IMG/VR virus record: IMGVR_UViG_3300028315_000508
Coordinates: 1 to 64,000 of that record
DNA from: a virus
Reading direction: 5' to 3' (one strand)
DNA length: 64,000 nt
Shown here: positions 22,826 to 63,333 of the stretch, in pieces
Layout of the letters: every line of letters begins with the position of its first letter
Position numbering within the stretch: the first letter of the stretch is position 1
Notes under the pieces: model-generated
Database searches by the model: none
What the model was told of the DNA's origin: nothing
Seen by the model: only the letters and a program-made list of their open reading frames with translations
Translations under genes and position numbers: made by a program

Positions 22826-23575
22826 ATGCTACCAAGCAGAAGAAATAACAGGGCTTTGTTGGAGGACATCCACGAGCCCTCTTACTTCAATCGCGGTCTG
22901 ATCGCGGAGACCGGTCGTATCCCGCTTGGCTTCAAGCTGATTCAGGATACGTTCCCTTTTGAGGTCATCGAAACGAAGAATACGGTGACTGAGGGGAAAG
23001 ATGGCCGTGAAGTCCCGATCATGCGTGTCACCGGTCTGTTTCAGATGGGTGACAGGGAGAATGCGAACGGACGATGGTACTCCACTCGTGACGTTCTGGC
23101 TCCAGCCGTGCAGCAGATTCAAGAGGATGTGTCGGCACGAGCCGTTATGGGTGAATTTGATCACCCTGCGGACGCGAAAATTCACCTTGACCGTGTCAGC
23201 CACCTAATGACGAAAGTCTGGATGGACGGTCGCAAGGTCTTCGGCGAAGCCGAGGTCCTACACAGTCTCCCATGTGGTGCCTGTCTCCGTGGCTTGTTTG
23301 AACACAAGGTGCGGGTGGGGATTTCATCTCGTGGGGTTGGAGACATGGAAGTCTCTGAGCAGGGTGGGCATGAGGTCTACCGGGTGATGCCGGGCTACTC
23401 GTTCGTGACTTGGGATGCTGTTGCCGAGCCTTCGGTCAACGGAGCCATCCTGAACATTCAAGAAAGCCTGAATCGGCGGATTCGACCGCTGGCACAGCAG
23501 CGAGATAAGTTCCCCCGAGCGACCTACGAAAAGATGTTGGTCAAGGAGATCAACAGCTTCTTCGATTTGAGGTAA
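22826..23575 (+). CDS. prohead core protease, gp21-like
   Basis: The 249-residue protein carries the gp21/U9 protease signatures: GEFDHP with catalytic His (H113) and VGISSRG with catalytic Ser (S167 or S168). GLIAETG near residue 24 is a hydrophobic-x-Glu site where self-cleavage could occur. This enzyme removes scaffold and the N-termini of head proteins after Glu in (L/I)-x-E sites. The capsid leader and the MKLR proteins in this window carry such sites. The ribosome site is CGGAG at eight bases. Confidence 0.93.
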   Translation: MLPSRRNNRALLEDIHEPSYFNRGLIAETGRIPLGFKLIQDTFPFEVIETKNTVTEGKDGREVPIMRVTGLFQMGDRENANGRWYSTRDVLAPAVQQIQEDVSARAVMGEFDHPADAKIHLDRVSHLMTKVWMDGRKVFGEAEVLHSLPCGACLRGLFEHKVRVGISSRGVGDMEVSEQGGHEVYRVMPGYSFVTWDAVAEPSVNGAILNIQESLNRRIRPLAQQRDKFPRATYEKMLVKEINSFFDLR

Positions 23576-24416: not shown

Positions 24417-26036
24417 ATGCTACCCACCAGAAACGCCCAGCGGCAACGCTTCAGTGGCGGTGGTCGCAGAACTCTTGCTGAAGGCACTGGAACCGGTCGT
24501 CGGCCAATCACAGAAGCCACCGACCTCCATCAGGCCGCCGTCATTCACGAGGGGAAGAAAAACCAACTCGTGAACAAATGGTCGCCGGTCCTTCGCAAGT
24601 GTCGCGAAGTCCCGCAGCAAAAGTTCGGCCTGATGGCCGCGATCCTCGAGAACCAGTACAACTGCTGGAATCCCGAGAACCGCTCGGTCATCTTGGAAGA
24701 CCAGACGACCACGGCGAACATCGCCGACTTCACCCGGTTTGCCCTTCCGCTCATCCGGAAGTCCTATCCGAAGCTGATCGCCGACAACCTCGTCGGTGTC
24801 CAGCCGATGAGCCAACCGGCGAGCTTGATCTTCTACATCCGATACCGCTACGCCCTCACCAAGGGCCAAACGGTCGCCGGAACGCAGATCATGCGTCAGA
24901 ACACCGCCCAGGTGTTCGCACGCCAAAACGGATGGGCACTCGACCCGTACTACAGCTCGCAGGAAGTCCGTGGTGAAGACGCCACGATCACCGGTAACAC
25001 GGTGGTTTCCGCGACGCTGGCACACCGCCCGGTTCTCGCCGGTACGGTTGTGGTCGAGGTCTTCGAGACCGAAGCCGACGCCAATCCGAACTGCGAAGAA
25101 GCCGTCCCCTGTCTCCGCGTCAGCTTTGACAGTGACGGTGCCCCTGACGTTGTCCTCGTTGGCGACTGCACGAACTTCACCGACAACCTGACGGTTGACA
25201 CGACCACCACTGGTGCCACCGAGTTCAACCACTCGACCGGTGCTGTTCAGATCTCGCTCTCCGCCGGTGTCTTCCCGGCCGGAGCGGTCGCACGCGTCAA
25301 CTACGAGTACGACCTCGAAGCCAACCCGTTCCAGCCGGAAGTTACGCTGAGCATCGACAGCGACTCGGTCGCCGCGATCACGCGTAAGCTCAAGACCAGC
25401 TGGAGCCTCGAGGCAGCTCAGGACCTCAAGTCGGTTCACAACATCGACGCCGAGTCCACTCTCACCGACCTGATGGCCGATGAAATGGTCGCGGAAATCG
25501 ATCGTGAAATCATCAACGACCTGATCATTTCGGCAGCCATTCGTGCCGACCACAACTTCGCGACCGCCGCTGGTGCGTCCGTGAACTTCACCGACCGCAA
25601 CATCGCCTTGATGTACAAGGTCCTCGAAGTCGCGAACATCATCCACCGGACAACGCTCCGTGGTCCCGCCAACTGGATGGTCATGTCCGCCGACATCTGC
25701 TCGAAATTCGAGCAGCTCAACGACTTCCGTGCGAGCGACGCGTTCACAACGGAAGGTGTCGACATCGGCATCATGAACATCGGCACGATCCAGGGCAAGA
25801 TGAAGATCTACAAAGATCCTCTCTTCCCGAACTGCAAGATCCTCATGGGCTTCAAGGGCAACTCCGTCCTCGACGCCGGATACTTCTACGCTCCGTACAT
25901 TCCGCTGCTCAGCACCCCGACCGTGCTGGACCCGAACAGCTTCACGCCGAACAAGGGTGTCATGACCCGATACGGCAAGAAGCTCATCGAGGACGGCGGC
26001 CTGTACTACGGTGTGGTCACGGTCAGCAACCTGTAA
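24417..26036 (+). CDS. major capsid protein, gp23-like
   Basis: The 539-residue protein shows gp23 features: FALPLIRKSYPKLIADNL, VGVQPMSQPASLIFYIRYRY, and a long beta-rich centre. The N-terminal leader has three gp21-type sites: LAE|G (22/23), ITE|A (33/34) and IHE|G (45/46), the last just before KKNQLVNKWSPVL, a likely mature start. Codon choice is strongly biased, as for an abundant protein. It follows the scaffold gene after 34 bases with AGGAGT six bases before its ATG. A hairpin terminator follows. Confidence 0.95.
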   Translation: MLPTRNAQRQRFSGGGRRTLAEGTGTGRRPITEATDLHQAAVIHEGKKNQLVNKWSPVLRKCREVPQQKFGLMAAILENQYNCWNPENRSVILEDQTTTANIADFTRFALPLIRKSYPKLIADNLVGVQPMSQPASLIFYIRYRYALTKGQTVAGTQIMRQNTAQVFARQNGWALDPYYSSQEVRGEDATITGNTVVSATLAHRPVLAGTVVVEVFETEADANPNCEEAVPCLRVSFDSDGAPDVVLVGDCTNFTDNLTVDTTTTGATEFNHSTGAVQISLSAGVFPAGAVARVNYEYDLEANPFQPEVTLSIDSDSVAAITRKLKTSWSLEAAQDLKSVHNIDAESTLTDLMADEMVAEIDREIINDLIISAAIRADHNFATAAGASVNFTDRNIALMYKVLEVANIIHRTTLRGPANWMVMSADICSKFEQLNDFRASDAFTTEGVDIGIMNIGTIQGKMKIYKDPLFPNCKILMGFKGNSVLDAGYFYAPYIPLLSTPTVLDPNSFTPNKGVMTRYGKKLIEDGGLYYGVVTVSNL

Positions 26037-26177: not shown

Positions 26178-26486
26178 ATGAAATACGCTGCGATGGCACT
26201 GTCTCTGATCCTGATGGCTTCCACAGTGCAAGCCAACACCGTGTCATGTCGAGAAATCAGGATCGAGGACCCATGCAAAGTGGCACCATGCTCGGTGCCC
26301 ACGGAAATCACCGTCTGCGACCCATTTACGTGCTGCGAGGTCAAGTTGACTGTCTGCATGCCGAAGGGCTGCGTGGTGTGCCCGGAAGTCACAAGGCACG
26401 GTCGAAAAGTGAAATATGATTTCGGCAAATACGAAGTGGAAATCCACTTCAGCCGCAAAAACATCACGATCGACTACGACGACTGA
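26178..26486 (+). CDS. secreted cysteine-rich protein
   Basis: The 102-residue protein has a clear signal peptide (MKYAAMALSLILMASTVQAN) and ten cysteines in the mature part in a regular pattern (CREIRIEDPCKVAPCS, CDPFTCCEVKLTVCMP). Cysteine pairs suggest disulfide bonding after export. It is followed by a strong hairpin and has a good ribosome site (GGAGGACCC). It resembles small secreted Cys-rich proteins of planctomycetes. Role unknown: perhaps an envelope modifier or exclusion factor. Confidence 0.75.
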   Translation: MKYAAMALSLILMASTVQANTVSCREIRIEDPCKVAPCSVPTEITVCDPFTCCEVKLTVCMPKGCVVCPEVTRHGRKVKYDFGKYEVEIHFSRKNITIDYDD

Positions 26487-26492
26487 TCAACG

Positions 26493-26522
26493 CAACGGCC
26501 CGGTGAACACGCCGGGCCGTTG
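26493..26522 (+). terminator. hairpin terminator after the Cys-rich protein gene
   Basis: Stem CAACGGCCCGG / CCGGGCCGTTG with loop TGAACACG, then TCGTATCAAAC. It resembles the previous hairpin closely, with changes on both arms that keep pairing. Confidence 0.85.
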
Positions 26523-26624
26523 TCGTATCAAACATACCATAAATGAATGGTGTCCTCCCGCCTTGGTATTCTGGCAGATGGTCTGCCGGATGTCCGTAAG
26601 TCCGAGCAAAAGGGAGGATTGAGG

Positions 26625-26900
26625 ATGAGCGAAACACATCGCATGCCTCAACTCGGCGAGCCGATCGTCTACTGTGATTCACGTGGGGTGGATCACGACG
26701 CCTTGATTACCGCAGTTTGGGGAGAAGATTGCATCAATCTTGTCTTCGTCTCCGGTGATGAAAGTCGTAAAGACAGTTACGGTCGGCAGGTTGAACGGGA
26801 GACGTCAGTGCTCCACGTCAGTAGAAGCGACGTTCACGGCTCTTACTGGCGGTTCAAAGAAGAGAAGCGAAACCCCTACAAAGCTCCTCTGCAAAGCTGA
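26625..26900 (+). CDS. hypothetical protein
   Basis: The 91-residue protein (MSETHRMPQLGEPIVYCDS...) is unrecognised. GGGAGGATTGAGG lies just before the ATG, a strong ribosome site that rules out the longer reading from 26547. It shows short strands (DALITAVWGEDCINLVFVSG) of a small beta barrel type. It stands alone between hairpin and the convergent DUF5131 gene. Confidence 0.75.
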   Translation: MSETHRMPQLGEPIVYCDSRGVDHDALITAVWGEDCINLVFVSGDESRKDSYGRQVERETSVLHVSRSDVHGSYWRFKEEKRNPYKAPLQS

Positions 26901-26948
26901 GTGAACAGCCTGTTGGAACCGAGCAGGAACCTATCACACAGGCGACAC

Positions 26949-27782
26949 TCAATTTGCACTGAACGGCATCTGACGAACACGGGCATCAACCGGCCATTCA
27001 TCCCAATCTCCGCCGTGATGATCGTTGAACGACAACCCAATCGGGTGTGATCCGAACTGCTTCACGAACACGGCAATCTCCAGCTTTTTGCCCAACTCGA
27101 TGACCCTGTAGACCCAATCAGGATCGAACGGTCTTCCGATGTGTACTCCCTGATCACTCTCGCCACCGATGATGATCCAGTCAATGCCGCGTAAATGCTT
27201 CGCGGTCAATCCTGGGTCACCGACCAGCGGCTCCAATGACAAGAATCTGTGAGTGGCCGGGACCCGACGCAGATGGTCGATCCTTTTCAGGCTGTTCCTG
27301 CCGGTGATACTCGTTCCGCACCACAAGTTCTCCGGCCACGGCTCGTCCAGCCAATCAGCGAAGTCAGCTGTGCGATTCGGCTGTTTCGTCAGCATCTGCA
27401 GATCGTGGCGATTTCCGTTGACGCTATTGGCGACGTCTACGATTTCTTCCTTCAAGAAATCGAATGTCACTGCGGCAGAGAAGACGTCTCCCAGGTCGCC
27501 CAGGAAGATCTTACGACGCCTGCCGCTCAGCCACGGTTTGTCCGTTCGTGCTTTCCCCGTCAAGTCCATGCAGCGGACGGCCTTCTCCATACGGCCAGGA
27601 ATCATCCTGACATTGGTGAAGACGGGGTCGTAGAACTGGGGCAGTGAGTGGGCCAATCGAGTTTCGTGGAAGTTGCCCGCGTAACACGGACCTCCACGAC
27701 CGGGAACCCACAATTCGCAACCATCGCACCCAGAAGTCGGGTTGACGGTGTCATCTGCCCACTGAATGCCAGTGCCTTTCAT
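26949..27782 (-). CDS. DUF5131 family protein (phage Gp37/Gp68-like)
   Basis: The 277-residue protein shows the family start IQWADDTVNPTSGC with cysteines C19, C22 and C33 and a PCYAGNFHETR segment; the later WIIIGGESDQGV and VFVKQFGSHP strands are also characteristic. The family is widespread in phages and linked to radical-SAM-like folds, but the biochemical role is unproven. The ribosome site GAGGAGGTGATCT precedes the ATG. It is the only minus gene between 8.6 and 31.4 kb. Confidence 0.85.
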   Translation of the reverse strand: MKGTGIQWADDTVNPTSGCDGCELWVPGRGGPCYAGNFHETRLAHSLPQFYDPVFTNVRMIPGRMEKAVRCMDLTGKARTDKPWLSGRRRKIFLGDLGDVFSAAVTFDFLKEEIVDVANSVNGNRHDLQMLTKQPNRTADFADWLDEPWPENLWCGTSITGRNSLKRIDHLRRVPATHRFLSLEPLVGDPGLTAKHLRGIDWIIIGGESDQGVHIGRPFDPDWVYRVIELGKKLEIAVFVKQFGSHPIGLSFNDHHGGDWDEWPVDARVRQMPFSAN

Positions 27783-27892
27783 AGATCACCTCCTCGTGGT
27801 TGTTGCAACTATTCAGTTGCGGTTAACTTCGAGGCGTGATCTGGAATTCCCAGCATCTCGCAATTTCTCAAATACGTTTGCGTTCCGGCGAC

Positions 27893-27901
27893 AAATCTAT
27901 A
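27893..27901 (+). promoter_or_regulatory. AT-rich late-type box before MKIR gene
   Basis: AAATCTATA ends two bases before the ATG at 27904 with no ribosome site between, matching the arrangement before the other MKLR genes. Confidence 0.4.
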
Positions 27902-27903
27902 CT

Positions 27904-28164
27904 ATGAAGATCAGGTCTATCATAGAATCAGAATACGAAGGACTCGAGGATTCAGACGAGTTTCGAGACCGACGTACCGGGCCAGATTTTCTTCCACGAG
28001 AAAGGACACTCACCGATATCGCGAGAGATCTTGAAGTCTTAACTCGAGAAACCAACGAGTTAATAACCGACTGGAACAGACTTCGTGCGGAGAGTATCCT
28101 CAGAGTTCTGAGAGCACGTGCATACTTGCTGCAGCTGTTGATCGAAAAGGACTATGAAACTTAG
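27904..28164 (+). CDS. putative capsid-targeted small protein
   Basis: The 86-residue protein starts MKIRSIIESEYEGLEDSDEF: the MK(L/I)R-x-I-I-E leader, a gp21-type IIE|S site, then a copy of the recurrent decapeptide. The rest is helical and basic (IARDLEVLTRETNELITDWN, ESILRVLRARAYLLQLLIE), which could bind DNA or form a helical hairpin. No zinc ribbon follows the decapeptide here, unlike the next gene. It overlaps that gene by 11 bases. It is likely packaged in the head. Confidence 0.6.
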   Translation: MKIRSIIESEYEGLEDSDEFRDRRTGPDFLPRERTLTDIARDLEVLTRETNELITDWNRLRAESILRVLRARAYLLQLLIEKDYET

Positions 28165-28621
28165 GTCGATCATTGAATCATACGAAGGTCTTGAAGACGC
28201 CGATGAATTCAGCGGTGGCTGGACTGAAGTATGCAGCTTCTGCGGGAACACCTACGATGTCGATGACGAAACCGACTATGCCTGTGCTGGATGCGGCAGG
28301 ACGACCTGCCCTGATTGCGAGATAACCTCTCAGAGGCTCCCGGATGGCACGTACGACGAGCGAATCTTCTGCTCACCTCAATGCCGGGCCACTCTCATGA
28401 GGCTCGAGGAAGCCAAAGGAAAAACTCCGGGACCTATCATAAGGCGGATTCAATGGAGTCCGGCCGCAATTTGGATTCAATTCCCGAGTGGTGAGACATG
28501 GGAATATGTCGTCTACGAAAATCGTTGGCTTGAGGACATTCTGCGTAGAAATCGCCGTAACGGGGGTAGGGTTGTTGCTGCTCTCAAGAAGTTGGGTGTT
28601 GAAGCTCGCAAAGCGAGCTAA
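28154..28621 (+). CDS. putative capsid-targeted zinc-ribbon KTSC-like protein
   Basis: The 155-residue protein begins MKLRSIIESYEGLEDADEF, leader plus decapeptide. A ribbon follows: CSFC, CAGC, CPDC and later FCSPQC. The C-terminal 50 residues (AAIWIQFPSGETWEYVVYEN then a helix) resemble a KTSC domain, a small RNA/nucleoprotein-associated fold. Domain order is leader, decapeptide, zinc ribbon, KTSC-like. AAAGGA lies just before its ATG. The zinc part resembles that of the 1312-residue protein at 48799. Confidence 0.6.
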   Translation: MKLRSIIESYEGLEDADEFSGGWTEVCSFCGNTYDVDDETDYACAGCGRTTCPDCEITSQRLPDGTYDERIFCSPQCRATLMRLEEAKGKTPGPIIRRIQWSPAAIWIQFPSGETWEYVVYENRWLEDILRRNRRNGGRVVAALKKLGVEARKAS

Positions 28622-28678
28622 ATATAAAAGCAACAACCATCTCAATGCACCTATCTGGTGCCAAACAGGAGGACCGCC

Positions 28679-29227
28679 ATGAAAAGACTTCTCACTTTGT
28701 TGGCAGTCGTTGCACTGCTTACGCCAGCCACGCTCCTTTTCGCTCAAGAGGCACCACCGCAACCAGCGGTTCAAGCGGCTCAAGAAGCCGCCGCAGAAGC
28801 CGTCCAAGAAGCAGCAGTCGTCGAAGTCACTCAAGTCATTGTCCGCAATACGACCTATGAGAAGGCCACACTCGAACGGTCTTTCAAGCTCGTTGCGGAT
28901 CAGCTTTCGAAGCACCTGAAGAAGGCAACGTTCAAAGTCGACGGCAGCATTCTTTACGTCGGTGTCCAATACGACGTCCTCGCCAAGGATGCGACTCTGG
29001 CCAAGATCGACTTCAGCTCCGATTGCCCAGACAACAGCCAATTCCACGTTCAACCATCGGTACTCGCCGCTCTCGGCACGAATGAGATCAAGGAGGTTCT
29101 CATTGCCTGGACCCGTTACAGGCACGATGCTATGGCGGCCGATGTTCGCGTCGTGAACGTGGCTGATCGCACGCGATACGTGAACTTCGATGTTCAGCTC
29201 AACATCAGGAAGGTTGCACTACGGTAA
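28679..29227 (+). CDS. secreted protein with Ala/Gln/Glu-rich spacer
   Basis: The 182-residue protein has a signal peptide (MKRLLTLLAVVALLTPATLL) ending FAQ, an Ala/Gln/Glu-rich spacer (QAAQEAAAEAVQEAAVVEV) and a 120-residue folded domain with strands such as TFKVDGSILYVGVQYDV and ADVRVVNVADRTRYVNFDV. The ribosome site CAGGAGGACCGCC is strong. The fold is not recognised. It would act in the periplasm or outside the cell late in infection. Confidence 0.7.
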   Translation: MKRLLTLLAVVALLTPATLLFAQEAPPQPAVQAAQEAAAEAVQEAAVVEVTQVIVRNTTYEKATLERSFKLVADQLSKHLKKATFKVDGSILYVGVQYDVLAKDATLAKIDFSSDCPDNSQFHVQPSVLAALGTNEIKEVLIAWTRYRHDAMAADVRVVNVADRTRYVNFDVQLNIRKVALR

Positions 29228-29254
29228 CGCCATCGAGTGCAGAGGACTTCGCAC

Positions 29255-29282
29255 GAGGCCCGGTCGGCAACGGCCGGGCCTC
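29255..29282 (+). terminator. hairpin terminator
   Basis: Stem GAGGCCCGG / CCGGGCCTC with loop TCGGCAACGG, tail TTTCGTAC. It follows the secreted-protein gene. Confidence 0.8.
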
Positions 29283-29394
29283 TTTCGTACGTCAATCGCT
29301 GAACAGAATAAGACCCCCCGGTAGTGTGGGTTTGTGTAAAGATACTGTGGCAATTCCGCCAAACCCGAACAGGTCCCAAAAGGGGAGAGATCAA

Positions 29395-29763
29395 ATGAAG
29401 AGCTTGCTCGCTGTAGGAGCAATGCTGGCAGCAGTCGTTGCAACTTCCAACACTGCGGAAGCCCAGCAGTGCTTTGTCAACCAAGGTTTCAGTCAGCCCG
29501 TCGTCGTTCAGCAACCGTTCGTCACTCAACAGTTCGCCCAGCCGGTCTTCGTGAACCGAGGCTTCGTGCGACAACCAGTCATCGTCAACCGAGGCTTCGT
29601 GCGACAGCCGATCTTCGTGGGGCGGCAACGCTTCATCGGATCGCCATTCCGCAGCCGAGCGTTCATCGGAACTGGTTTCGGATTTCAGCAGCCGGTATTC
29701 GTCAACACTGGCCCATCGTTCGGGCTATTTGGCCGTCGAGGCGGCCTGTTCCTGAACTTCTGA
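29395..29763 (+). CDS. secreted Phe/Gln/Val repeat protein
   Basis: The 122-residue protein has a signal peptide (MKSLLAVGAMLAAVVATSNT, cut near AEA) and imperfect repeats of NRGFVRQPVIV and QPVFVN units; one repeat of about 36 bases is duplicated almost exactly near 29548-29610. A lone cysteine follows the signal. The repetitive, Gly/Phe/Val-rich nature suggests a surface or matrix protein. AGGGGAGAG is upstream. The product resembles planctomycete secreted proteins. Confidence 0.7.
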   Translation: MKSLLAVGAMLAAVVATSNTAEAQQCFVNQGFSQPVVVQQPFVTQQFAQPVFVNRGFVRQPVIVNRGFVRQPIFVGRQRFIGSPFRSRAFIGTGFGFQQPVFVNTGPSFGLFGRRGGLFLNF

Positions 29764-29782
29764 GTGGGTGAGAATCGATGCG

Positions 29783-29815
29783 GTTTGTGGCCTCACCATT
29801 GGTGGGGCCACAAAC
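29783..29815 (+). terminator. long hairpin terminator
   Basis: Stem of 15 base pairs, from GTTTGTGGCC to GGCCACAAAC with a short ATT loop, followed directly by GTATTTGG. The 297 bases from here to 30060 hold this hairpin, a second hairpin at 29956 and only ORFs under 30 codons on the plus strand; I see no other gene. Confidence 0.85.
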
Positions 29816-29955
29816 GTATTTGGGCATTGATTGGTCTGTGATGCAAAAATATCAACAAGACAGCGATCGCACCATGCTCGATTCACTGATATCTCCTCAC
29901 GCTCTAGTATGATCAGAGTTCGGATATCCACCCCCGGACTCATCGAGAACTTCAG

Positions 29956-29989
29956 CAAAGAGCCCAGTCAATTTCGGCTGGGCTCTTTG
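29956..29989 (+). terminator. hairpin terminator upstream of the Pro-rich gene
   Basis: Stem CAAAGAGCCCAG / CTGGGCTCTTTG, then CGTATTTAAAG. It lies 70 bases before the next gene; with no gene before it, it may end a small RNA or guard the promoter. Confidence 0.8.
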
Positions 29990-29990
29990 C

Positions 29991-29998
29991 GTATTTAA
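29991..29998 (+). promoter_or_regulatory. GTATTTAA late-type promoter box
   Basis: GTATTTAA follows the hairpin by one base. The next gene starts 62 bases on with its own GTGAGGAG ribosome site, so this message would have a leader. Confidence 0.45.
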
Positions 29999-30060
29999 AG
30001 TGACCGGAAGCCCGATTGGGTATTGTCGTTCAACCATGGAACTTGTGAGGAGTCTCCAAA

Positions 30061-30678
30061 ATGAGGAAGCTGCTACTCCTGGGACTTGCCATTTTGGCGT
30101 CCCTCTCAGCCGTATCAGAAGCAAACGCAGGATTATTCTTCCGCCACAGCAATTGCAGCTGCAGCAGGGTCAGAATCTTCCGCACCCGATGCCGCGTACA
30201 ATGTGTGCCATGTGGCCAACAAACCGGCACCGTTGTTGAAGAAGTCGTACCAGCAGCCGAAGCCCCACCATCAACCAACCCAAGTGGACCAGCGGCTCCT
30301 GACACGACCACGAACCAGCAAGTCCCGGAAATCGCACCGCCCCCGCCAATCGACGCCGGACCAGCCGCCCCCGCAGTGCAGTCATCCACGCCGGAAGAAA
30401 CAACAAAACCAACTCCGGCCCCGACTGTCAACCAAGGTGCCCAGGAAGAGAAACCGTTCCAATTGCTGAATCCGCCTCAGACTCCGCCACCGGCACCTTC
30501 AACCAAGCCACAATCTGAGCCAACTCCTACGCCCACTCCGGAAGCGGCACCATCGGAGCAACCGGTCAACACGCCGACTCCAACGCCGAAACCTGATCCG
30601 GATTTCAATTTGGTTACAAATGACAGGGGAATGGTACCACCAGCCCCATCATCTTTTCTGCTTGTCGGTCGGGACTAA
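30061..30678 (+). CDS. secreted Cys-cluster and Pro-rich protein
   Basis: The 205-residue protein begins with a signal peptide (MRKLLLLGLAILASLSAVSE, ending ANA), followed by GLFFRHSNCSCSRVRIF and CRVQCVPC, then a Pro/Thr/Glu-rich spacer for about 130 residues (QNTPTPTP-like). The start and the Cys cluster are of a type common in planctomycete exported proteins. It is preceded by GTGAGGAG. The stalk-like spacer suggests a cell-surface display role. Confidence 0.7.
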   Translation: MRKLLLLGLAILASLSAVSEANAGLFFRHSNCSCSRVRIFRTRCRVQCVPCGQQTGTVVEEVVPAAEAPPSTNPSGPAAPDTTTNQQVPEIAPPPPIDAGPAAPAVQSSTPEETTKPTPAPTVNQGAQEEKPFQLLNPPQTPPPAPSTKPQSEPTPTPTPEAAPSEQPVNTPTPTPKPDPDFNLVTNDRGMVPPAPSSFLLVGRD

Positions 30679-30705
30679 CCTCCCACGAGATTGACTCATG
30701 CGTAG

Positions 30706-30729
30706 AGAGCCGGGCTTCAGCCCGGCTCT
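30706..30729 (+). terminator. hairpin terminator before the HD-domain gene
   Basis: Stem AGAGCCGGGC / GCCCGGCTCT with TTCA loop, followed by TTGCGTATAAATA. It ends the secreted protein gene and abuts the next promoter. Confidence 0.85.
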
Positions 30730-30734
30730 TTGCG

Positions 30735-30742
30735 TATAAATA
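30735..30742 (+). promoter_or_regulatory. TATAAATA late promoter
   Basis: Exact match to the T4 late promoter TATAAATA, six bases after the terminator and six bases before the ATG at 30749. In T4 the start site is about six bases after the box, so the message would begin at or next to the ATG. No ribosome site exists. Confidence 0.65.
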
Positions 30743-30748
30743 TAGAGC

Positions 30749-31291
30749 ATGAAGCTCAGATTCATTGCAGAACTCAATTGGAGAAAAGCACGGCGACGAA
30801 TGAAGCCGTTGCTTGCTATTCTGCCAAAGCGTAAGAAAAAGCACTCCGAACGAGTTGGGAAGACTTTGAAGGACGTAGGTGCTGGAAAAATAGCCACCTA
30901 TGCCGGACTCCTGCATGACTATCTTGAGCGAGGGGGCTCTCTCGAGGACCTCTCGGACCACATTGAAGAGTTAGGTCTACCTCGACAGATCGTTCAAGCC
31001 GTCCAGTCTCTCAGCCAAGACGAGAATTACGGTACATCAAATCAACCTCTGACGCATCTCAAACGGGTGTTGAAAACGATTGACGATGAAGATCTTCGGA
31101 ACATCGTCATCGTCGCCAAACTCGCCGATAGGATTGACAATTTCAGGAGACGTCGGAATCGAGACGAATTGACAAAGCTGTACCGCAAGAATACCGACAG
31201 GCTGATCGAATATCTCATCAACCAATACACAGGCAAAGGCAAACCAGTTAGGAAATTGATGCGGATTTATTCCGCGATTGCGGGGGAATGA
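30749..31291 (+). CDS. putative packaged HD-domain hydrolase, (p)ppGpp-hydrolase-like
   Basis: The 180-residue protein starts MKLRFIAE|L, a capsid-targeting-like leader with a gp21 site. It then shows the metal-site spacing of SpoT/Mesh1-type HD hydrolases: H32 (KKHSERV), H56-D57 (AGLLHDYLE) and KLADRIDN with D127 (ADR...N). The region between holds the helix pattern EELGLPRQIVQAVQSLSQD typical of that fold. If it hydrolyses (p)ppGpp it would counter the stringent response at infection. Leader plus enzyme is inferred to mean packaging and injection. It could also hydrolyse another nucleotide. Confidence 0.6.
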   Translation: MKLRFIAELNWRKARRRMKPLLAILPKRKKKHSERVGKTLKDVGAGKIATYAGLLHDYLERGGSLEDLSDHIEELGLPRQIVQAVQSLSQDENYGTSNQPLTHLKRVLKTIDDEDLRNIVIVAKLADRIDNFRRRRNRDELTKLYRKNTDRLIEYLINQYTGKGKPVRKLMRIYSAIAGE

Positions 31292-31473
31292 TGGCGAAGA
31301 AGAAGAAAGCAAATCCCCTGAAAAAGAAGTGCAGTGACTGTGGTAATCCCACAACCGATTACTATCCGATAAAGGGCGGCATTCGTTGCAATGAATGTCA
31401 AGAACGCTTTGTCAGGACTGGCTATCAAGAGGATAAACCGGCACATGGGTCTTACAAAGACAGACGTCGATAG
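31288..31473 (+). CDS. small zinc-ribbon protein
   Basis: The 61-residue protein has a lysine-rich start and one ribbon, CSDC...CNEC, with a basic tail. It overlaps the HD gene by ATGA, so the two are likely coupled. A second ATG lies one codon in. Its size and charge suggest a nucleic-acid-binding helper. Confidence 0.65.
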   Translation: MMAKKKKANPLKKKCSDCGNPTTDYYPIKGGIRCNECQERFVRTGYQEDKPAHGSYKDRRR

Positions 31474-32073
31474 TCACTTCTTCTCGTGCACCCAAATTCT
31501 GGTGTTCTCCACCACGTAAAAATCGTCCTTGAAACACTCCTGGACGGCGTCCATCACTCCAGGATCGCAGCTCCAATAGTCGTGGCCATACATTCTGCCG
31601 CCCGGATTGAGCAGTGGCAGAAACGCTAGAATGTCACCTTCCGCATCTTCCCTACGGTGCCCGGCATCAATGTAGATAGTGTCAGCCTTGACGCCGTCTT
31701 TGAATAGTAGAGTGGCGGCTGTGAGGCCAGCCATCTTGTGGAACTTAAATTCGAGATCTGGACGCTTCTTGTGCAGTGCCCGCAAAGTAGCTTCTAAGAC
31801 TTCAGTGGCCCACTCGTTTGATGGTAAACCAAACCCAGGTAGATGGTGGATGCCCCATTCATGCTCCATTGGATCGATCAAATGAAGCGTACTGTTACTT
31901 GTCATTGCATTTGCTGTTGCCCACAAACTTTTGCCACAGAAGACGCCGACCTCGATGTGACATTTGCTGTTCACTTCTTCGGCTAACCTATGGAGAGTAT
32001 CAAGCTCGCGTGGCCAACACCAACCTGGGATCTGCCAGGCAGCTTGTTTGGTTAGTTCTGCAGGAGTTTTCAT
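31474..32073 (-). CDS. SAM-dependent methyltransferase, family 24-like
   Basis: The 199-residue product has HIEVGVFCGKSLW (SAM-binding loop), LHLIDPMEHEWG, DTIYIDAGHRREDAEGDI and GGRMYGHDYWSCDPGVMDAV, the pattern of class I methyltransferases of the CmcI/Methyltransf_24 type. The target is unknown; such enzymes often modify sugars or small molecules. The start MKTPAELTK is preferred because AAGGA lies eight bases ahead; the ORF could extend to 32091. It abuts the previous gene with no spacing at the stops. Confidence 0.8.
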   Translation of the reverse strand: MKTPAELTKQAAWQIPGWCWPRELDTLHRLAEEVNSKCHIEVGVFCGKSLWATANAMTSNSTLHLIDPMEHEWGIHHLPGFGLPSNEWATEVLEATLRALHKKRPDLEFKFHKMAGLTAATLLFKDGVKADTIYIDAGHRREDAEGDILAFLPLLNPGGRMYGHDYWSCDPGVMDAVQECFKDDFYVVENTRIWVHEKK

Positions 32074-33196
32074 GGACAATATTCCTTGCATCTACAGAGG
32101 ATCACACCCATTTGTGAGACCGGTTGCGTCGGATGTTATCCGAACTTTCAGATGCCATTCTGATGAGGTCCCCACTCATTATTGTTCTTTGCACGAGCAA
32201 ATCGAAGGATTGACATGCTGCTCGCAGTGTGCCCACCGCACCGAATATTCGCGAGATGAAACACAAATCGTCTTGTCACAAGGCCGCTGGAACTACATAT
32301 CTACGGCCCAGCTCCTAAGAGATACCTACGAACTCGTCAAGCATGTCCCAGCTGATTGTGCTGGTATCGTCGGTGTGCCACGGTCCGGGATGATCCCGGC
32401 TTCGCTTTTGGCGACTGCTTCTCATTTGCCGTTGCTTGAATTTTCGAGCCAATATGGCCTTAGACAGCTTGGAACTGGCGGCAGAATGCACGGTGCTCGC
32501 ATTGGTGATTTCGGAAAAGGAAAGTTGTTTGTCGTAGACGATTCTGTGCACAGTGGTGGGGCGATGAGTCTTGTTCGTGACTTCTTGGGAAACAAGGCGA
32601 TCTACTCCACTGTTTATTGCCGTATGGAGGCATCACAAGAAGTCGATATCTTCATCAGAGAAGCACCAAGCCCACACATTTTCGAATGGAATCTGTTCAA
32701 CAGCGGTAATGTGTCAGGCCAATCAGGAGAAGACGTTCACTGGTTCACTGGCGGCATAGCATTCGACTTCGATGGCATCATTTGTCCCGATCCACCGGTA
32801 CCAGACGCTGACGATGGTCCCGGCCTAGAAGCGTACATTCACTATCTCAAAAATGCCCCGCCAACTCATATGACGCCGCGATACGATCCGGTTCCGCTGA
32901 TTGTCACTCTCCGGCTCGAGAAGTGGAGAGAGATTACGATGGACTGGCTTAGAAGGAACAGAGTGACGTGCTGGAAACTTGTGATGTGTCCCTACGAGAA
33001 TGCGTCTGAGAGGAACGGAGAAAACGGTGTCGTGCCAGAGCACATTATCATCAAGCACAAAGCGATGCCATACAAGGAATCAAAGTGTATCTTGATGGTC
33101 GAATCAGATCCTCGACAGGCTGAACTGATTCATTTTGCCAGTGGCAAGCCCGTGCTCTGTCCAGCCACCGGCGAGATCTTTCAAGACTCGATCTGA
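32072..33196 (+). CDS. phosphoribosyltransferase-HAD fusion protein
   Basis: The 374-residue protein has an N-terminal cysteine set (C28, C38, C49, C50, C53) that may bind zinc, then a type I phosphoribosyltransferase with GVPRSGM (101-107) and PRPP loop FVVDDSVHSGG (153-163). Residues about 229-374 look HAD-like: AFDFDG with D232 and D234, and a late MVESDPRQAELIHFA motif. It could pair base attachment or salvage with dephosphorylation. AGGAG lies six bases before the ATG, which shares CATG with the methyltransferase start. Substrates are unknown. Confidence 0.7.
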   Translation: MDNIPCIYRGSHPFVRPVASDVIRTFRCHSDEVPTHYCSLHEQIEGLTCCSQCAHRTEYSRDETQIVLSQGRWNYISTAQLLRDTYELVKHVPADCAGIVGVPRSGMIPASLLATASHLPLLEFSSQYGLRQLGTGGRMHGARIGDFGKGKLFVVDDSVHSGGAMSLVRDFLGNKAIYSTVYCRMEASQEVDIFIREAPSPHIFEWNLFNSGNVSGQSGEDVHWFTGGIAFDFDGIICPDPPVPDADDGPGLEAYIHYLKNAPPTHMTPRYDPVPLIVTLRLEKWREITMDWLRRNRVTCWKLVMCPYENASERNGENGVVPEHIIIKHKAMPYKESKCILMVESDPRQAELIHFASGKPVLCPATGEIFQDSI

Positions 33197-33636
33197 ATCA
33201 AGTCGTGGTCGTTGAGAGTGAATGGGTAGAACCATGGGCGATCTGCGTAATCTGGGTCGCCGTGCCTGGCGAATTCGCCGACCTCGACAGTGCAGTCGCT
33301 TTCGAAGATGAAAGCGACTTGCTCTTGATCCTTGCATCGCCAGCCAACAATGTGAATTCTGTCTACGACGCCGACAGTTCCACGCATCGCTGTCCTAGCT
33401 CGATACAAGAATTGTTGCCCAGGTTTGTATCGTTGTGTGAATTTGACGTTACCGTTGCGGTCAGTTAGGACGAATGCTCTCAGCTTCTCTCTGTCGATGT
33501 CTTCGCTGCAATGGATTTGCTGGCCGTTGTCGTACTGCTTCAGCACCGTCCCGTCTTTATAGATGACATACCATTCCAGCTTCGGGTCGTAGTCCCGGTT
33601 CGTTGCGACTGTTGGTGCTGGTGCTTGTTTTGCCAT
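33181..33636 (-). CDS. hypothetical protein
   Basis: The 151-residue product (MAKQAPAPTVATNRDYDPK...) is unrecognised. It contains beta-strand-rich segments such as LEWYVIYKDGTVLKQYDNG and VDRIHIVGWRCKDQEQVAF. It overlaps the previous gene's end by 16 bases on the other strand. No strong ribosome site is seen. Confidence 0.6.
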   Translation of the reverse strand: MAKQAPAPTVATNRDYDPKLEWYVIYKDGTVLKQYDNGQQIHCSEDIDREKLRAFVLTDRNGNVKFTQRYKPGQQFLYRARTAMRGTVGVVDRIHIVGWRCKDQEQVAFIFESDCTVEVGEFARHGDPDYADRPWFYPFTLNDHDLIQIES

Positions 33637-33706
33637 AACGGTATCTACTGTGTGATTCCTCGTGGTAGTTGGAGTCAGAGCACTGTGGAGAACGTGTTGA
33701 TCTGGG

Positions 33707-34069
33707 ATGTCAAGGCAAGCAGCTCCTTATCGAGTTATGGCAGTTACGAACTGTCCTCTTACCGACATTGCTCCGCCAGTGAGTGTTACGTCATCTACTT
33801 ATTGCAGTCCGCACTCACGATTCTGGCTTAGCTTACATGGCTTGGAAGATCCAGCCGCACCATTGCTCCTCCTTGAATTTGTGGAGACGGTCGAACTATC
33901 GAATTATGATTCCTACGGCAGAATGCAAGATTGGAGAGTCGAATTCGAGTATGACGGGGGGCGTTACATTGGGACCCATTGTACCAATTTGAACAAAGCG
34001 AAGATGATTGCTACTCGTCTGGGTATTCCAGCAATCACATCTTTTGTATTTGATATCTCGTCTTTCTGA
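33707..34069 (+). CDS. hypothetical protein
   Basis: The 120-residue product is unrecognised. The C-terminal half (YDSYGRMQDWRVEFEYDGGR and later ITSFVFDISSF) looks beta-rich. Internal ATG at 33737 is an alternative start; neither has a clear ribosome site. Confidence 0.5.
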   Translation: MSRQAAPYRVMAVTNCPLTDIAPPVSVTSSTYCSPHSRFWLSLHGLEDPAAPLLLLEFVETVELSNYDSYGRMQDWRVEFEYDGGRYIGTHCTNLNKAKMIATRLGIPAITSFVFDISSF

Positions 34070-34082
34070 CCAAAGATATCGT

Positions 34083-34526
34083 ATGAACTTTGAGCGTCAC
34101 CTAAATCTGGTCCTCGGTGGGTTATTCTCTCAGGATACACTCCTTGAGACTCTAGATCCGTACGGCGACACGGTGGACCTAGAAGATGATACGAAGGAAG
34201 ATAATTATGTCAGCGGCTCCGAACAAGTTGAAGCTGCTGAGCTGATAAAGCAGCTTCGGGCCAGAAACGAACTAGATCAATCAGAAGATAATCAGCTTGG
34301 ACTGTCACTGAAACGGTCTCAGGACGCGGCTGACCTTGCTACTGCCGCATACCGGAAGGTGAATGATCTCGAACTCAAAGTCGATCGCGGCTTTGGTGGT
34401 TTACAAAAGTCGCTTATTAAACTCTCCAAGGGTGAACCCCTGGAAGAGCCAGACCCTCCTGGCTCGTCGATCTTTGATGAAGACGAGGAACTTAGCGAAT
34501 TTGGGTTCATGTTCGACGATGAATAA
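34083..34526 (+). CDS. hypothetical acidic helical protein
   Basis: The 147-residue protein has an N-terminal segment MNFERHLNLVLGGLFSQ, a helical middle rich in Ala, Glu, Leu, Lys and a strongly acidic tail (DEDEELSEFGFMFDDE). ATATCGT stands just before the ATG and there is no ribosome site, as in the leaderless group. Function unknown. Confidence 0.55.
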   Translation: MNFERHLNLVLGGLFSQDTLLETLDPYGDTVDLEDDTKEDNYVSGSEQVEAAELIKQLRARNELDQSEDNQLGLSLKRSQDAADLATAAYRKVNDLELKVDRGFGGLQKSLIKLSKGEPLEEPDPPGSSIFDEDEELSEFGFMFDDE

Positions 34527-34534
34527 TCTTCTGA

Positions 34535-34542
34535 GTATTTAA
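34535..34542 (+). promoter_or_regulatory. GTATTTAA late-type promoter box
   Basis: GTATTTAA lies eight bases after the previous gene and 17 bases before the ATG at 34560, with a GGAGGA ribosome site in between. Confidence 0.45.
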
Positions 34543-34559
34543 TACCAGGAGGATCATCA

Positions 34560-35033
34560 ATGCCATCGACCCAAGACGCGTATCTTCATGTCATCACTGG
34601 CGGCTTCGATGAAAAGAAGAGAAAGGCCGTCAGGAAAATGTTCCAGGGCGAAGCCACGGAAGAGCAGCAAGAAGACAAACCAGACCCTAGCAACTACGAT
34701 CTGATCGTGGGGGCTCTTGAAGAAATCCACGCGGTGGGAATCAAACAATTCACCATCGCTCAGGTTGTTCAGATTCTGTCGATCTTTGAAGTCTTGAATT
34801 TCCTGACTGGAAATGTCGATGAGTACATCGAGCGTGCTCTCGCTATTCTGGGCTGCGGACGGCACGGTGACATATTCACGATCCCAGATCAGAATAAACT
34901 GGAAGCCATTCGTCGGCAACACTGCCCCGATAACAAACGGAATGAGCGACTAAAATCGCTCGGGCATCAAATACCAGTCGCAGTTGAGGGATCTGAAGAA
35001 TGGCGATCTCTTCGGGACCGTGACTTGAAGTAG
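34560..35033 (+). CDS. hypothetical protein
   Basis: The 157-residue protein is unrecognised. It has a strong ribosome site (CAGGAGGATCATCA). It includes acidic-linker residues (EEQQEDKPDP), a helical segment IKQFTIAQVVQILSIFEVLN and a basic C-terminal part (CPDNKRNERLKSLGHQIPV). Confidence 0.65.
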   Translation: MPSTQDAYLHVITGGFDEKKRKAVRKMFQGEATEEQQEDKPDPSNYDLIVGALEEIHAVGIKQFTIAQVVQILSIFEVLNFLTGNVDEYIERALAILGCGRHGDIFTIPDQNKLEAIRRQHCPDNKRNERLKSLGHQIPVAVEGSEEWRSLRDRDLK

Positions 35034-35039
35034 GCAAAA

Positions 35040-35357
35040 ATGCGTAGTGTCGTCTTTGGGAACCTGATTGTCTGCAAGCACGTCTTCGACAATTATCCAT
35101 CAAGGTTCCCGCACCAATCCCGCGATCTTGACTTCGATAATCGAGAAGACAGAATCGAAATCGCTCGGTTCATCAAATCGGTTATCGATTGCTCCGTTAA
35201 AGTAGAGAAGCCAGATGGACAGACAATATTCGTCTATATGCCACAGGACGCTCCTCCGGTGGCTTTTCCTGCCGACATCGGCCCCACGCGGACTAAGATT
35301 GTGACGAGCTACCCAGCCGGGCCTTCTTTGGTAAATAAAGCAAAGCTACTTCAGTGA
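35040..35357 (+). CDS. hypothetical protein
   Basis: The 105-residue protein is unrecognised; residues 20-50 are rich in Arg/Asp. It overlaps the next gene by four bases (GTGA), so the pair is likely coupled. Confidence 0.6.
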   Translation: MRSVVFGNLIVCKHVFDNYPSRFPHQSRDLDFDNREDRIEIARFIKSVIDCSVKVEKPDGQTIFVYMPQDAPPVAFPADIGPTRTKIVTSYPAGPSLVNKAKLLQ

Positions 35358-35542
35358 CAGTGCCAATGTCCACCGAACAAGATCACAAGCAACAAGATCA
35401 CAAGCAAAAAGATCAATGCCAAGGTCGTCGCAAGGTTGAGGAAAGCGTCTACGTTCAAGAATCAAGGATCACCACGAGGGAGCCTGCGAAGTCCAACTTC
35501 GATGCCAAACTCGACGATGCCCTGAACAAGGTCAACGGCTAA
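35354..35542 (+). CDS. small hydrophilic protein with DHKQ repeat
   Basis: The 62-residue product starts at GTG and contains the repeat QDHKQQDHKQKDQ and a basic helix. It is probably disordered. A terminator follows 22 bases after the stop. Confidence 0.5.
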   Translation: MTVPMSTEQDHKQQDHKQKDQCQGRRKVEESVYVQESRITTREPAKSNFDAKLDDALNKVNG

Positions 35543-35563
35543 AAGCCAATCTCCAACCAGACC

Positions 35564-35592
35564 AGAGCCGCATGGAATTCCTATGCGGCTCT
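35564..35592 (+). terminator. hairpin terminator
   Basis: Stem AGAGCCGCAT / ATGCGGCTCT with loop GGAATTCCT, followed by TGTCGTATTTGACC. Confidence 0.85.
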
Positions 35593-35596
35593 TGTC

Positions 35597-35604
35597 GTAT
35601 TTGA
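35597..35604 (+). promoter_or_regulatory. GTATTTGA box before a gene without ribosome site
   Basis: GTATTTGA ends five bases before the ATG at 35610. The surrounding GTCGTATTTGACCAAT is nearly identical to that at 11507-11521. Confidence 0.5.
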
Positions 35605-35609
35605 CCAAT

Positions 35610-36299
35610 ATGGACACGAACAACGCGAAAAAGGTACTCGTCGGCTATTGGCCGCTTCTTGATTTCACCAAGGTGATGTCGAAACCGGGTGATGTCAAAG
35701 AGGGTGCTGATGTTGTCACGTCTCTTTCTAAAATGCTTTCCGAAATCGAGATTCCTCCCGTCGCTGGTATCATGTGGGCACACTATCCATTCGATGCCGA
35801 GACAGTAGAAGAAACTGTCACGATCCCAGTTATTCTGATGGATAGGGCGGCTGAGATTGCAGATCATCTGCTCATGTGGATGGAGAACGATGTGAGTCGT
35901 TTCACTCTTCACTTCGAACAGCGTGATATTGGGTATGCTGTCTTACTATTGCCGGATGTCTTGAAGTCGATCGAACGATGGAAGGCCGCTCGTCTAATCT
36001 ACCATGAAGAGGTCGTAACCGACAACGACTTCTCTGTAATCTACCAGACCCTTGGTACGTGTTGTCTTGGTGGTAAGACTTTCGAACAAATCAAAGGGTC
36101 GGTTCAGAGTCCGTGTCATGTCGGGTTTCTTGATCTCGACAAGATGGACCCGAAAAGTCCTGAGGACATCAACCCTGAAGACATCGTCGTTGTCGGTCCG
36201 TTCCGGATTGTGACAGATCCGGATGACAGGGCACGGATGCATCTTGATAATCTGTTCTCAACGGTTGAACCGGTAAAGTCGAAGCTCAATGAATCGTGA
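35610..36299 (+). CDS. hypothetical protein
   Basis: The 229-residue product is unrecognised, with alternating strands and helices (DIGYAVLLLPDVLKSIERWK). It has no ribosome site, and the promoter box lies five bases before the ATG. An upstream reading from 35583 lies inside the terminator and is rejected. It overlaps the following gene by 11 bases. Confidence 0.7.
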   Translation: MDTNNAKKVLVGYWPLLDFTKVMSKPGDVKEGADVVTSLSKMLSEIEIPPVAGIMWAHYPFDAETVEETVTIPVILMDRAAEIADHLLMWMENDVSRFTLHFEQRDIGYAVLLLPDVLKSIERWKAARLIYHEEVVTDNDFSVIYQTLGTCCLGGKTFEQIKGSVQSPCHVGFLDLDKMDPKSPEDINPEDIVVVGPFRIVTDPDDRARMHLDNLFSTVEPVKSKLNES

Positions 36300-36741
36300 A
36301 CGATCAACGGAGTTGTTGCGTAAACTGATGTCCGTGAGTAGTGTCGGGCATCGTAATTCGGGTCATCGTTTCTTGGTGAACCCCTTTCTCACTCTCGTTC
36401 ACCGCGAGTGCATGACCTTCACGTGGGAAGAGGCACAAAATTGGGAGACGAAGGGTCTCTTCATTGGGCAGGACGACACAGATGAAGCTGCTACACCGTA
36501 CGTGATCGTTGTTTACGAGATGAGATGCGGTACTCTCCCATTCGTCATTTTGCCAAAGAAAAAATGGGGGACGTGGGAGCCAAATCTTGATCCCCTCAAA
36601 ATTGACTTTGGTCCGGGCGGCGAGTTCGGTTGGTGGCTCAAGTTTGATCGCTGGCACCTTGGACCTCACATTGAATCGTATGTGGAGAAGGTCGGTGCGG
36701 GTCAAAAAGTTCACCATTTTGCAAGGCGTCCTGTTTCTTAG
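36289..36741 (+). CDS. hypothetical protein
   Basis: The 150-residue protein is Trp/Pro/Gly-rich toward the end ('GPGGEFGWWLKFDRWHLGPH'). It overlaps the lipoprotein nuclease gene by 47 bases in another frame. Not recognised. Confidence 0.55.
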   Translation: MNRERSTELLRKLMSVSSVGHRNSGHRFLVNPFLTLVHRECMTFTWEEAQNWETKGLFIGQDDTDEAATPYVIVVYEMRCGTLPFVILPKKKWGTWEPNLDPLKIDFGPGGEFGWWLKFDRWHLGPHIESYVEKVGAGQKVHHFARRPVS

Positions 36742-37267
36742 TATCCTGCTTATTGCGGGATGCCCTTCTAAGCAAGCGACACCGCCTGTCACGTCGCCGT
36801 CGATCTCAGACAATACATCTGTGGTCGATGAAGATGTGGCATCGGCACAGTCTTCTACGAAGTCATACGGCGACATCACAATAGACAGGTTGGTATCGAT
36901 CTACGATGGCGATACGTTCCATGTCGATATTGCAGGTTGGCCGGACATCGTCGGGAAGAATGTCTCTATCAGGGTCAATGGAATTGATACTCCTGAGCGT
37001 AGGGACAAGCGAGAAAATATCAAGAGACTGGCCCAAGCTGCGAAAGAGCTGGTCGTTACCAGGTTGCGTGCTGCGGAATCTATTGAATTGCGGAACATGC
37101 AGCGTGGTAAATATTTTCGCATTGTCGCTGATGTCTACGTTGACGGTGAAAGCTTGGCTGACATTCTGATCGAACAGGGCCTTGCTAAGCCGTACGACGG
37201 TGGCACCAAGATAGAATGGTCCGAAGCTGATTCAGAAAGGTACTTCAATGGCCGCAACACAGACTAA
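36695..37267 (+). CDS. secreted lipoprotein nuclease, SNase/TNase-like
   Basis: The 190-residue protein has a lipoprotein signal ending LLIAGC (lipid-linked C23) and a staphylococcal-nuclease domain: YDGDTFHV (70-77), RVNGIDTPERR (93-103, catalytic Arg, Asp, Glu positions), and RIVADVYVDGESLADILIEQ. A Ser/Thr/Pro linker separates the two. It would be anchored outside the membrane and degrade nucleic acid there, perhaps blocking DNA of competing phages or feeding the host pool. The GTG start has GGAGAAGG upstream; the ATG 36680 is an alternative. Confidence 0.8.
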   Translation: MRVKKFTILQGVLFLSILLIAGCPSKQATPPVTSPSISDNTSVVDEDVASAQSSTKSYGDITIDRLVSIYDGDTFHVDIAGWPDIVGKNVSIRVNGIDTPERRDKRENIKRLAQAAKELVVTRLRAAESIELRNMQRGKYFRIVADVYVDGESLADILIEQGLAKPYDGGTKIEWSEADSERYFNGRNTD

Positions 37268-37652
37268 TGCCCGAGCGACGCTGATTTCTCAAAGTCTTGA
37301 AGGCCGCGAACAGATGATGGGCCTCGACTTCGGCAGCATCATCACGATCATCACGCAGTTGTTGCCGATGATCATCGCGTGCTTCAATCCCGACGACGGC
37401 CCACAGGCCCAAGCATACGTCTCCAAGCGGTACAATCCCGCGAACGCCGACGACCAGTATCGTGGTTACGACAAACGGCTCGTTAAGGCGATGGCACGTC
37501 AGGCCAAAAACGCCGGGCGAAGGGAAAAGCAGCACGTCACCTGGACGCAGGCGTACGAGATGGCCTTCGCGGCACTTGACGACATTCGCACTGGTGATGC
37601 TCATCAGGCAAGCGTGGCGATCGCTGAGAACCACGACTTCCTGTTGATCTGA
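37248..37652 (+). CDS. hypothetical protein
   Basis: The 134-residue product has a hydrophobic segment (FGSIITIITQLLPMIIACFN) and a basic helical rest (KAMARQAKNAGRREKQHVTW). Membrane association is possible. It overlaps the nuclease gene by 20 bases. Confidence 0.6.
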   Translation: MAATQTNARATLISQSLEGREQMMGLDFGSIITIITQLLPMIIACFNPDDGPQAQAYVSKRYNPANADDQYRGYDKRLVKAMARQAKNAGRREKQHVTWTQAYEMAFAALDDIRTGDAHQASVAIAENHDFLLI

Positions 37653-37666
37653 TCCAGTAATTGTGT

Positions 37667-37693
37667 TTTGAATGCGTTCTGACGCGGTTCAAA
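37667..37693 (+). terminator. hairpin terminator
   Basis: Stem TTTGAATGCGT / ACGCGGTTCAAA with one bulge and loop TCTG, followed by CGTATTTAAG. It is the first of two hairpins in the 153-base gap before the sulfotransferase gene. Confidence 0.65.
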
Positions 37694-37694
37694 C

Positions 37695-37702
37695 GTATTT
37701 AA
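37695..37702 (+). promoter_or_regulatory. GTATTTAA late-type promoter box
   Basis: GTATTTAA directly after a hairpin; about 50 bases later a second hairpin follows, so a short RNA of about 90 bases (37708-37792) could be made here. Confidence 0.35.
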
Positions 37703-37752
37703 GACAGCGGAAGGACCTGAATTCGGTTTGGGATAGCCGAGTTGCACATGTT

Positions 37753-37789
37753 GAGCCGCCCCTAGGAAATCCGGTCCTGGGGGCGGCTC
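37753..37789 (+). terminator. hairpin terminator before the sulfotransferase gene
   Basis: Long 15-bp stem (GAGCCGCCCCTAGGA with TCCTGGGGGCGGCTC), AATCCGG loop, ATTTTG tail. The U-run makes this a good intrinsic terminator. Confidence 0.85.
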
Positions 37790-37794
37790 ATTTT

Positions 37795-37802
37795 GTATCT
37801 GG
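37795..37802 (+). promoter_or_regulatory. GTATCTGG promoter-like box
   Basis: GTATCTGG ends three bases before the ATG at 37806, in the same position as the GTATTTRA boxes. No ribosome site. Confidence 0.35.
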
Positions 37803-37805
37803 ACA

Positions 37806-38731: not shown

Positions 38732-38741
38732 AACGTGCTGT

Positions 38742-38749: not shown

Positions 38750-38755
38750 CACGGC

Positions 38756-62868: not shown

Positions 62869-63333
62869 ATGAAACTCAGACTCATTGCGGAATCCCACGC
62901 GGATCGGATATCCCGAGAGCAGTCGGCCAAGAATCTTGTCGTGACCTCGCTCATCAAGGTCAGGAACATGCTTGGGCCGATGGGTCTGACAAAACGCCCA
63001 ATCCAGAAGCACAGGGTAGTAGAACCAATCGGCGACCCAGGTGTATTCAGGGCATTCAACTCACTGCGAGAAGTCGTTCGTGCCCGTGCCCAACGCGATG
63101 CTCGTAGTATTCTGAACGGCGAAAATGCCGAGCGGATCGGCGAGTTTTGGGGATTTCAAGTCCCAACTGGCTGGTACGACGTCCATGCGGGCCAAATGGG
63201 ACGACCGACTGCAACAGGTGCATTCGATAATATGATTCGAAACACCGTAGAGCAAGCAGCTGGCCTTGAAAACGATGAGGCCGGTCTCGCTACCAAGGCC
63301 GAACTGCTAAATCAGCTCGCAAGCCAGATCTAA
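62869..63333 (+). CDS. putative capsid-targeted protein
   Basis: The 154-residue protein starts MKLRLIAE|S, again the capsid-targeting-type leader. The rest is basic and helical (VVRARAQRDARSILNGENAE) with WGFQVPTGWYDVHAG. Function unknown; DNA binding is possible. CTAA at its end overlaps the convergent gene. Confidence 0.6.
   Translation: MKLRLIAESHADRISREQSAKNLVVTSLIKVRNMLGPMGLTKRPIQKHRVVEPIGDPGVFRAFNSLREVVRARAQRDARSILNGENAERIGEFWGFQVPTGWYDVHAGQMGRPTATGAFDNMIRNTVEQAAGLENDEAGLATKAELLNQLASQI

Follow-up and report, generated by a model that had tools for sequence, protein, structure and literature searches.

The window, a stretch of 64,000 nucleotides, was taken from an uncultured virus record of 146 kb (IMGVR_UViG_3300028315_000508) in which a gene for an HD-domain protein occurred together with a T4-type head module. 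The features were as follows (window coordinates; + denotes the plus strand).

15621-17600: terminase, T4-type head module
17667-19637: portal, T4-type head module
22826..23575, +: gp21-like head maturation protease (PHROG 207, E=3.8e-38)
24417..26036, +: major capsid protein, T4 gp23-like (tblastn: KVP40 gp23, E 4e-32; LR756511, a 595-kb uncultured phage, 40% identity)
27904..28164, +: tagged ORF beginning MKIRSIIES (leader motif)
28154..28621, +: tagged ORF beginning MKLRSIIES, cysteine-rich (leader motif)
30735..30744, +: TATAAATATA, box resembling a T4 late promoter and ending 4 nt upstream of the ATG (direct sequence)
30749..31291, +: HD-domain protein gene, 180 aa, pI about 10.1 (direct sequence, profile searches, AF2 model)
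30749..30772, +: leader (residues 1-8, MKLRFIAE), a putative capsid-targeting sequence, with cleavage predicted after E8 (leader pattern counts; gp21 rule L/I-X-E)
30842..30844, +: H32, predicted metal ligand (H in 83/83 relatives)
30914..30919, +: H56-D57, HD motif, predicted metal ligands (83/83 relatives)
30926..30931, +: E60-R61 replacing the catalytic E-D pair, motif HD4 (E in 83/83; position 61 D in 82/83, N in one)
31127..31141, +: D127 to N131 (DRIDN), with a predicted metal ligand (D127) and a residue on the substrate side (N131), each kept in 82/83 relatives
31288..31473, +: zinc-ribbon ORF, 61 aa, C-x2-C-x15-C-x2-C, its start overlapping the HD gene stop by 4 nt
62869..63333, +: tagged ORF beginning MKLRLIAES, with a tagged homologue in record L221 (leader motif and box)

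The open reading frame that a preliminary description of this DNA had placed at 30749-31291 was confirmed, and its start was secure because inspection of the sequence revealed an in-frame stop one codon upstream of the ATG at 30749. The gene lay in a variable region 3' of the capsid gene (genes 26178 to 40328) in which only three genes were matched in 80 related loci; the HD gene was not one of them. The 61-aa zinc-ribbon ORF is likely co-translated with the HD gene. It weakly matched many zinc ribbons, the DksA-like PHROG 54 among them (E=0.0065); a DksA identity was rejected since the cysteine spacing and Pfam scores were those of zinc ribbons in general. Four ORFs between the capsid and HD genes (26178-26486, 28682-29227, 29395-29763 and 30061-30678) had apparent signal peptides, which is unusual in a phage head region. 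A 1019-aa ORF between the portal and protease genes (19754-22813) had no PHROG match.

Against a profile built from the HD domains of 36 bacterial Rel proteins the HD protein scored E=3.1e-13, against one of 47 viral HD domains E=3.9e-14 and against one of all 83 relatives, with the query left out, E=1.1e-14. Profile members were partly recruited via the query, and almost every bacterial one was a long RelA/SpoT protein. Among the remaining ORFs of the window, none reached a score below E=0.6 against the relatives' profiles. Pfam HD_4 (PF13328) gave E=1.2e-4 and 22.3 bits, under its cut-off of 27.2, NCBIfam spoT_relA gave 1.4e-4, also under the curated cut-off, and PHROG 990 ('metal-dependent phosphohydrolase') gave 9.7e-8. 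Despite the weak library scores, RSH HD homology was settled because profiles without the query reached E=3.1e-13 to 1.1e-14. On these comparisons the homology of the domain to small alarmone hydrolases (SAHs) and to the RelA/SpoT hydrolase domain is far above chance, and the protein is, by descent, a very divergent member of the RSH HD superfamily. The class named in the preliminary description was borne out by the bacterial Rel profile; for the PF13328-type families to which it had pointed, homology was seen, but at a score under the Pfam cut-off.

By sequence, 7QOE ranked first among solved structures, without reaching significance; it is RelH of Leptospira levettii, a small alarmone hydrolase (PMC10434055). 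An alignment-guided AF2 model had a pLDDT of 81.9 and a pTM of 0.78; single-sequence AF2 gave no usable model (pLDDT 50.6). Foldseek matched the guided model best to Rel/SpoT/SAH entries throughout the top PDB matches, with probability near 1.0, TM of about 0.6 and modest E values of 0.07-0.2, the alignment itself guiding the model. Structure prediction thus pointed towards the proposed class by the identity and probability of the best matches, tempered by their E values and by the dependence of the model on the alignment, so that the HD fold is a probable one. Among viral matches, the model came closest to a protein from an uncultured marine phage that is labelled 'putative hydrolase' (28% identity, TM 0.68).

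The branch leading to the HD protein, at 4.0 changes per site, was the longest of 84 rows in the tree, and the tree position was left unused on this account. No close relatives were found in single-sequence scans of viral contigs or by tblastn against named phages, and no match at E<=1 was obtained in 48 records with related capsid genes. A search of 49 related records with HD_4 returned one other true SAH-like protein (L088) plus one weak partial match. The protein is a singleton among the viral contigs searched, so that joint conservation of leader and HD domain has no close relative to rest on. A second match in the phage's own genome, at 22430-22639, was dismissed as chance: it fell inside the 1019-aa ORF, with 66 residues aligned at 27%.

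In the alignment with 83 relatives, the metal ligands H32, H56-D57 and D127 were all intact, as were E60 and N131. H32, H56-D57, KLADRIDN with D127 and the MKLRFIAE start were as the preliminary description had reported, the metal residues being conserved in 82-83 of the 83 relatives. It had overlooked R61, at a position that is D in 82/83 relatives, and the unconserved HD1/HD2 region. R61 stands where the catalytic "ED" pair has its second acid (D82/D66) and aligns with D66 of human MESH1 (5VXA alignment), whose D66K variant is catalytically inactive (PMC9894426). The N-terminal HD1/HD2 substrate motifs (H.GQxR...PY..HP) were gone, the H alone being kept. When other SAHs with R after E were sought (AGLLHDxxER), only unrelated proteins were retrieved. 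R61 could be an error of the single assembly, though the reading frame was clean. Canonical (p)ppGpp hydrolysis is doubtful because R61 replaces the catalytic D and HD1/HD2 is missing; judged by these two tested features, the protein is unlike a working alarmone hydrolase. The intact metal ligands would favour some catalysis, and R61 and the lost HD1/HD2 would oppose the standard reaction. True (p)ppGpp hydrolysis therefore seems unlikely, and hydrolase activity of any kind is given slightly less than an even chance. Of the earlier claim of a stringent-response hydrolase, the HD class and the metal ligands stood; the activity was weakened by R61 and the loss of HD1/HD2.

MESH1, RelH and other SAHs (3NR1, 7QOE, 7P1Y) and the Rel/SpoT hydrolase domain (1VJ7, 6S2U) share the H..HD..D metal site, E60 and N131 with the query, together with the all-helical HD fold that is predicted for it; unlike them, the query has R61 where they carry the catalytic D, lacks the GxPY..HP motif and has a basic tagged N-terminus. 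The phage SAHs of PHROG 990 (PaSpo of Salmonella phage SSU5; phages ACP17, phiKM1, Y3, 2AV2 and phiM12) are, like the query, small stand-alone phage-encoded HD proteins; those compared here differ in lacking a capsid tag and in keeping the E-D pair and, in most, HD1/HD2, and are about 26% identical or less. Compact SAH-like proteins of LR756511 (L111:5962-6450) and contig L097 (L097:510-995), both from huge-phage records, have a short N-terminus like that of the query, with H-A-E-R-V replacing PY..HP, but no leader, an intact E-D pair and 26% identity. LR756511 also carries the nearest named capsid protein to that of the query phage (40%). The tree did not place these two proteins with the query, whose placement was unreliable.

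T4 gp21 cuts after L/I-X-E, the capsid-targeting sequence (CTS) being the first 10 residues, and ten N-terminal IPIII residues suffice for packaging (PMC9026906). MKLRFIAE follows this rule of the T4 prohead protease, and a gp21-type protease was present in the genome. When 37 records with related capsid genes were searched with a DNA pattern for MKL(R/S)x(I/L/F/M)xE, 27 matches were found versus 0 for the reversed pattern, independent cases being nearer 22 than 27 given near-copy records. All 27 were at ORF starts. Besides the HD protein, the cargo comprised mostly unrelated proteins, some of them hydrophobic, some small and basic, and one a GNAT acetyltransferase (Pfam E=2.6e-5). An independent gene-start count in relatives placed the leader at 7/1022 first ATGs versus 0/6877 later ATGs; in 22 other phage records it was near background (3 versus 2 in the control). 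Homologous cargo kept the leader across records while the remainder diverged (L220/L221, L210/L223), and the leader was also kept by the homologous cargo of L197, L208 and L212. Positions 6 (I/L) and 8 (E) were conserved and 5 and 7 varied, in a set partly selected for E8 whose unselected part showed the same conservation. The residue at P1' was L in the HD protein and S, N, D or A in most tagged relatives, a point against its being a packaged head protein. About 48 other viral HD relatives were compared, and none had the tag. The leader is a real start-specific element of the query phage group, and the capsid-targeting-type start proposed in the preliminary description was supported by the 27 versus 0 count, with every match at an ORF start, independently of the reasoning given there.

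A late-promoter-like TATAAATA-type box lay just 5' of the HD gene ATG at a fixed distance. The pattern [ACT]AAANAT[AT] starting exactly at -12 occurred at 42 per 1000 gene starts in the query phage and at 21 per 1000 in its relatives; at internal ATGs it was all but absent. It looks like a T4-type late promoter, from which the mRNA would begin at or adjoining the start codon. The -12 box preceded many start codons (30735-30748 and 62857-62868 in the window, L003-L006 and relatives), in most cases with no Shine-Dalgarno sequence, a combination that suggests leaderless late mRNAs in the query phage group.

We favour, with a probability of roughly 0.6, the reading of the HD protein as an internal head protein that bears a tag and has an RSH-class HD fold. 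The gene would be expressed late, and the tag would bring its product into the core of the prohead, where the gp21-like protease would cut it after IAE8. The mature domain, which is basic (pI about 10), would then remain with the DNA and be injected together with it. In the cell, it might remove a 3' (pyro)phosphate in a metal-dependent reaction, or bind a molecule bearing one, the target being perhaps a product, nucleotide or tRNA, of an enzyme of host defence, for example a toxSAS/CapRel-type toxin. Packaging, cleavage, injection and target are what we infer, and the target is without support from any genomic link. By analogy with T4 IPI and the SSU5 alarmone hydrolase, counter-defence would be the most likely use. 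T4 internal proteins are diverse defence proteins whose only common feature is the tag (PMC3012670). Like the query, T4 IPI-IPIII combine a short N-terminal tag ending in I/L-x-E and varied cargo with a T4-type protease and capsid; the query differs in its tag sequence and in having an RSH-class HD domain as cargo. We know of no precedent for such a domain as cargo of a T4-type capsid tag.

The leader could instead be a translation-initiation or promoter-linked start sequence, and the HD protein an ordinary cytoplasmic late protein. Of the MKL(R/S) starts with E8, roughly one in two has the fixed-distance box in front of it, and expression could shape start codons; but the box was absent at 14/29 E8 starts, conservation of positions 6 and 8 with variation at 5 and 7 is not readily explained in this way, and the I/L-x-E fit is a protease requirement, so that we regard this explanation as quite improbable. 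Still less credit is given to the idea that the gene is a degenerate leftover of an acquired alarmone hydrolase and no longer has a function: its singleton status, long branch and lost motifs would agree with decay, but the frame and metal ligands are intact, the start is secure, and a late-type box and a tag are present.

If the protein is packaged, it may be an active alarmone hydrolase that degrades (p)ppGpp/(p)ppApp or removes toxSAS-added tRNA pyrophosphate at the onset of infection. All four metal ligands, E60 and N131 are intact, the nearest solved structures, in sequence as in fold, are those of Rel and small alarmone hydrolases, and the SAH of phage SSU5 removes the FaRel2 tRNA modification (PMC11559606). 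This possibility nonetheless appears unlikely, given R61 in place of the catalytic D (compare the inactive MESH1 D66K; PMC9894426), the absent HD1/HD2 motif and the longest branch of the 84 rows. Alternatively, the domain might only bind, as a packaged decoy or sponge or as an inhibitor of a host Rel/SpoT or toxSAS enzyme, by analogy with T4 IPI binding its target nuclease. The missing catalytic acid and very fast divergence are consistent with a pseudo-hydrolase, and CTS-bearing T4 internal proteins are often stoichiometric inhibitors (PMC3012670), but pseudo-enzymes usually lose their metal ligands, all of which are kept here; we hold binding alone to be a tentative possibility.

Neither phage alarmone hydrolases nor T4 internal proteins are new in themselves; it is their combination that is new. 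To our knowledge, known phage alarmone hydrolases are all made after infection; a capsid-delivered one, if true, would act at once, like T4 IPI against restriction. That a head-packaged enzyme hydrolysing alarmones or tRNA pyrophosphates is injected and disarms RSH/toxSAS-based abortive defence before phage gene expression is, in our estimate, unlikely. The preliminary description had seen here a new way of blocking (p)ppGpp-based defence; delivery in the virion would indeed be new, but PaSpo of SSU5 reverses FaRel2 tRNA pyrophosphorylation, and phage hydrolases that undo host defence toxins are thus known (PMC11559606).

The packaging tag is judged more useful as a marker than the single HD protein, since MKL(R/S)x(I/L)xE would allow candidates for injection to be recognised from the sequence alone across a large group of T4-related, uncultured phages, and most tagged proteins are of unknown function. 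The further tagged proteins are candidates for injected proteins on the strength of their leaders. At least 20 more of unknown function were seen in related records (L197-L223, at position 1501 of each, and G000:129117-129578); those of L210 and L223 were hydrophobic and those of L197, L208 and L212 small and very basic. A second motif after the leader, GLED(A/S)DEF, was common to three ORFs of the query phage (27904-28164, 28154-28621 and 14074).
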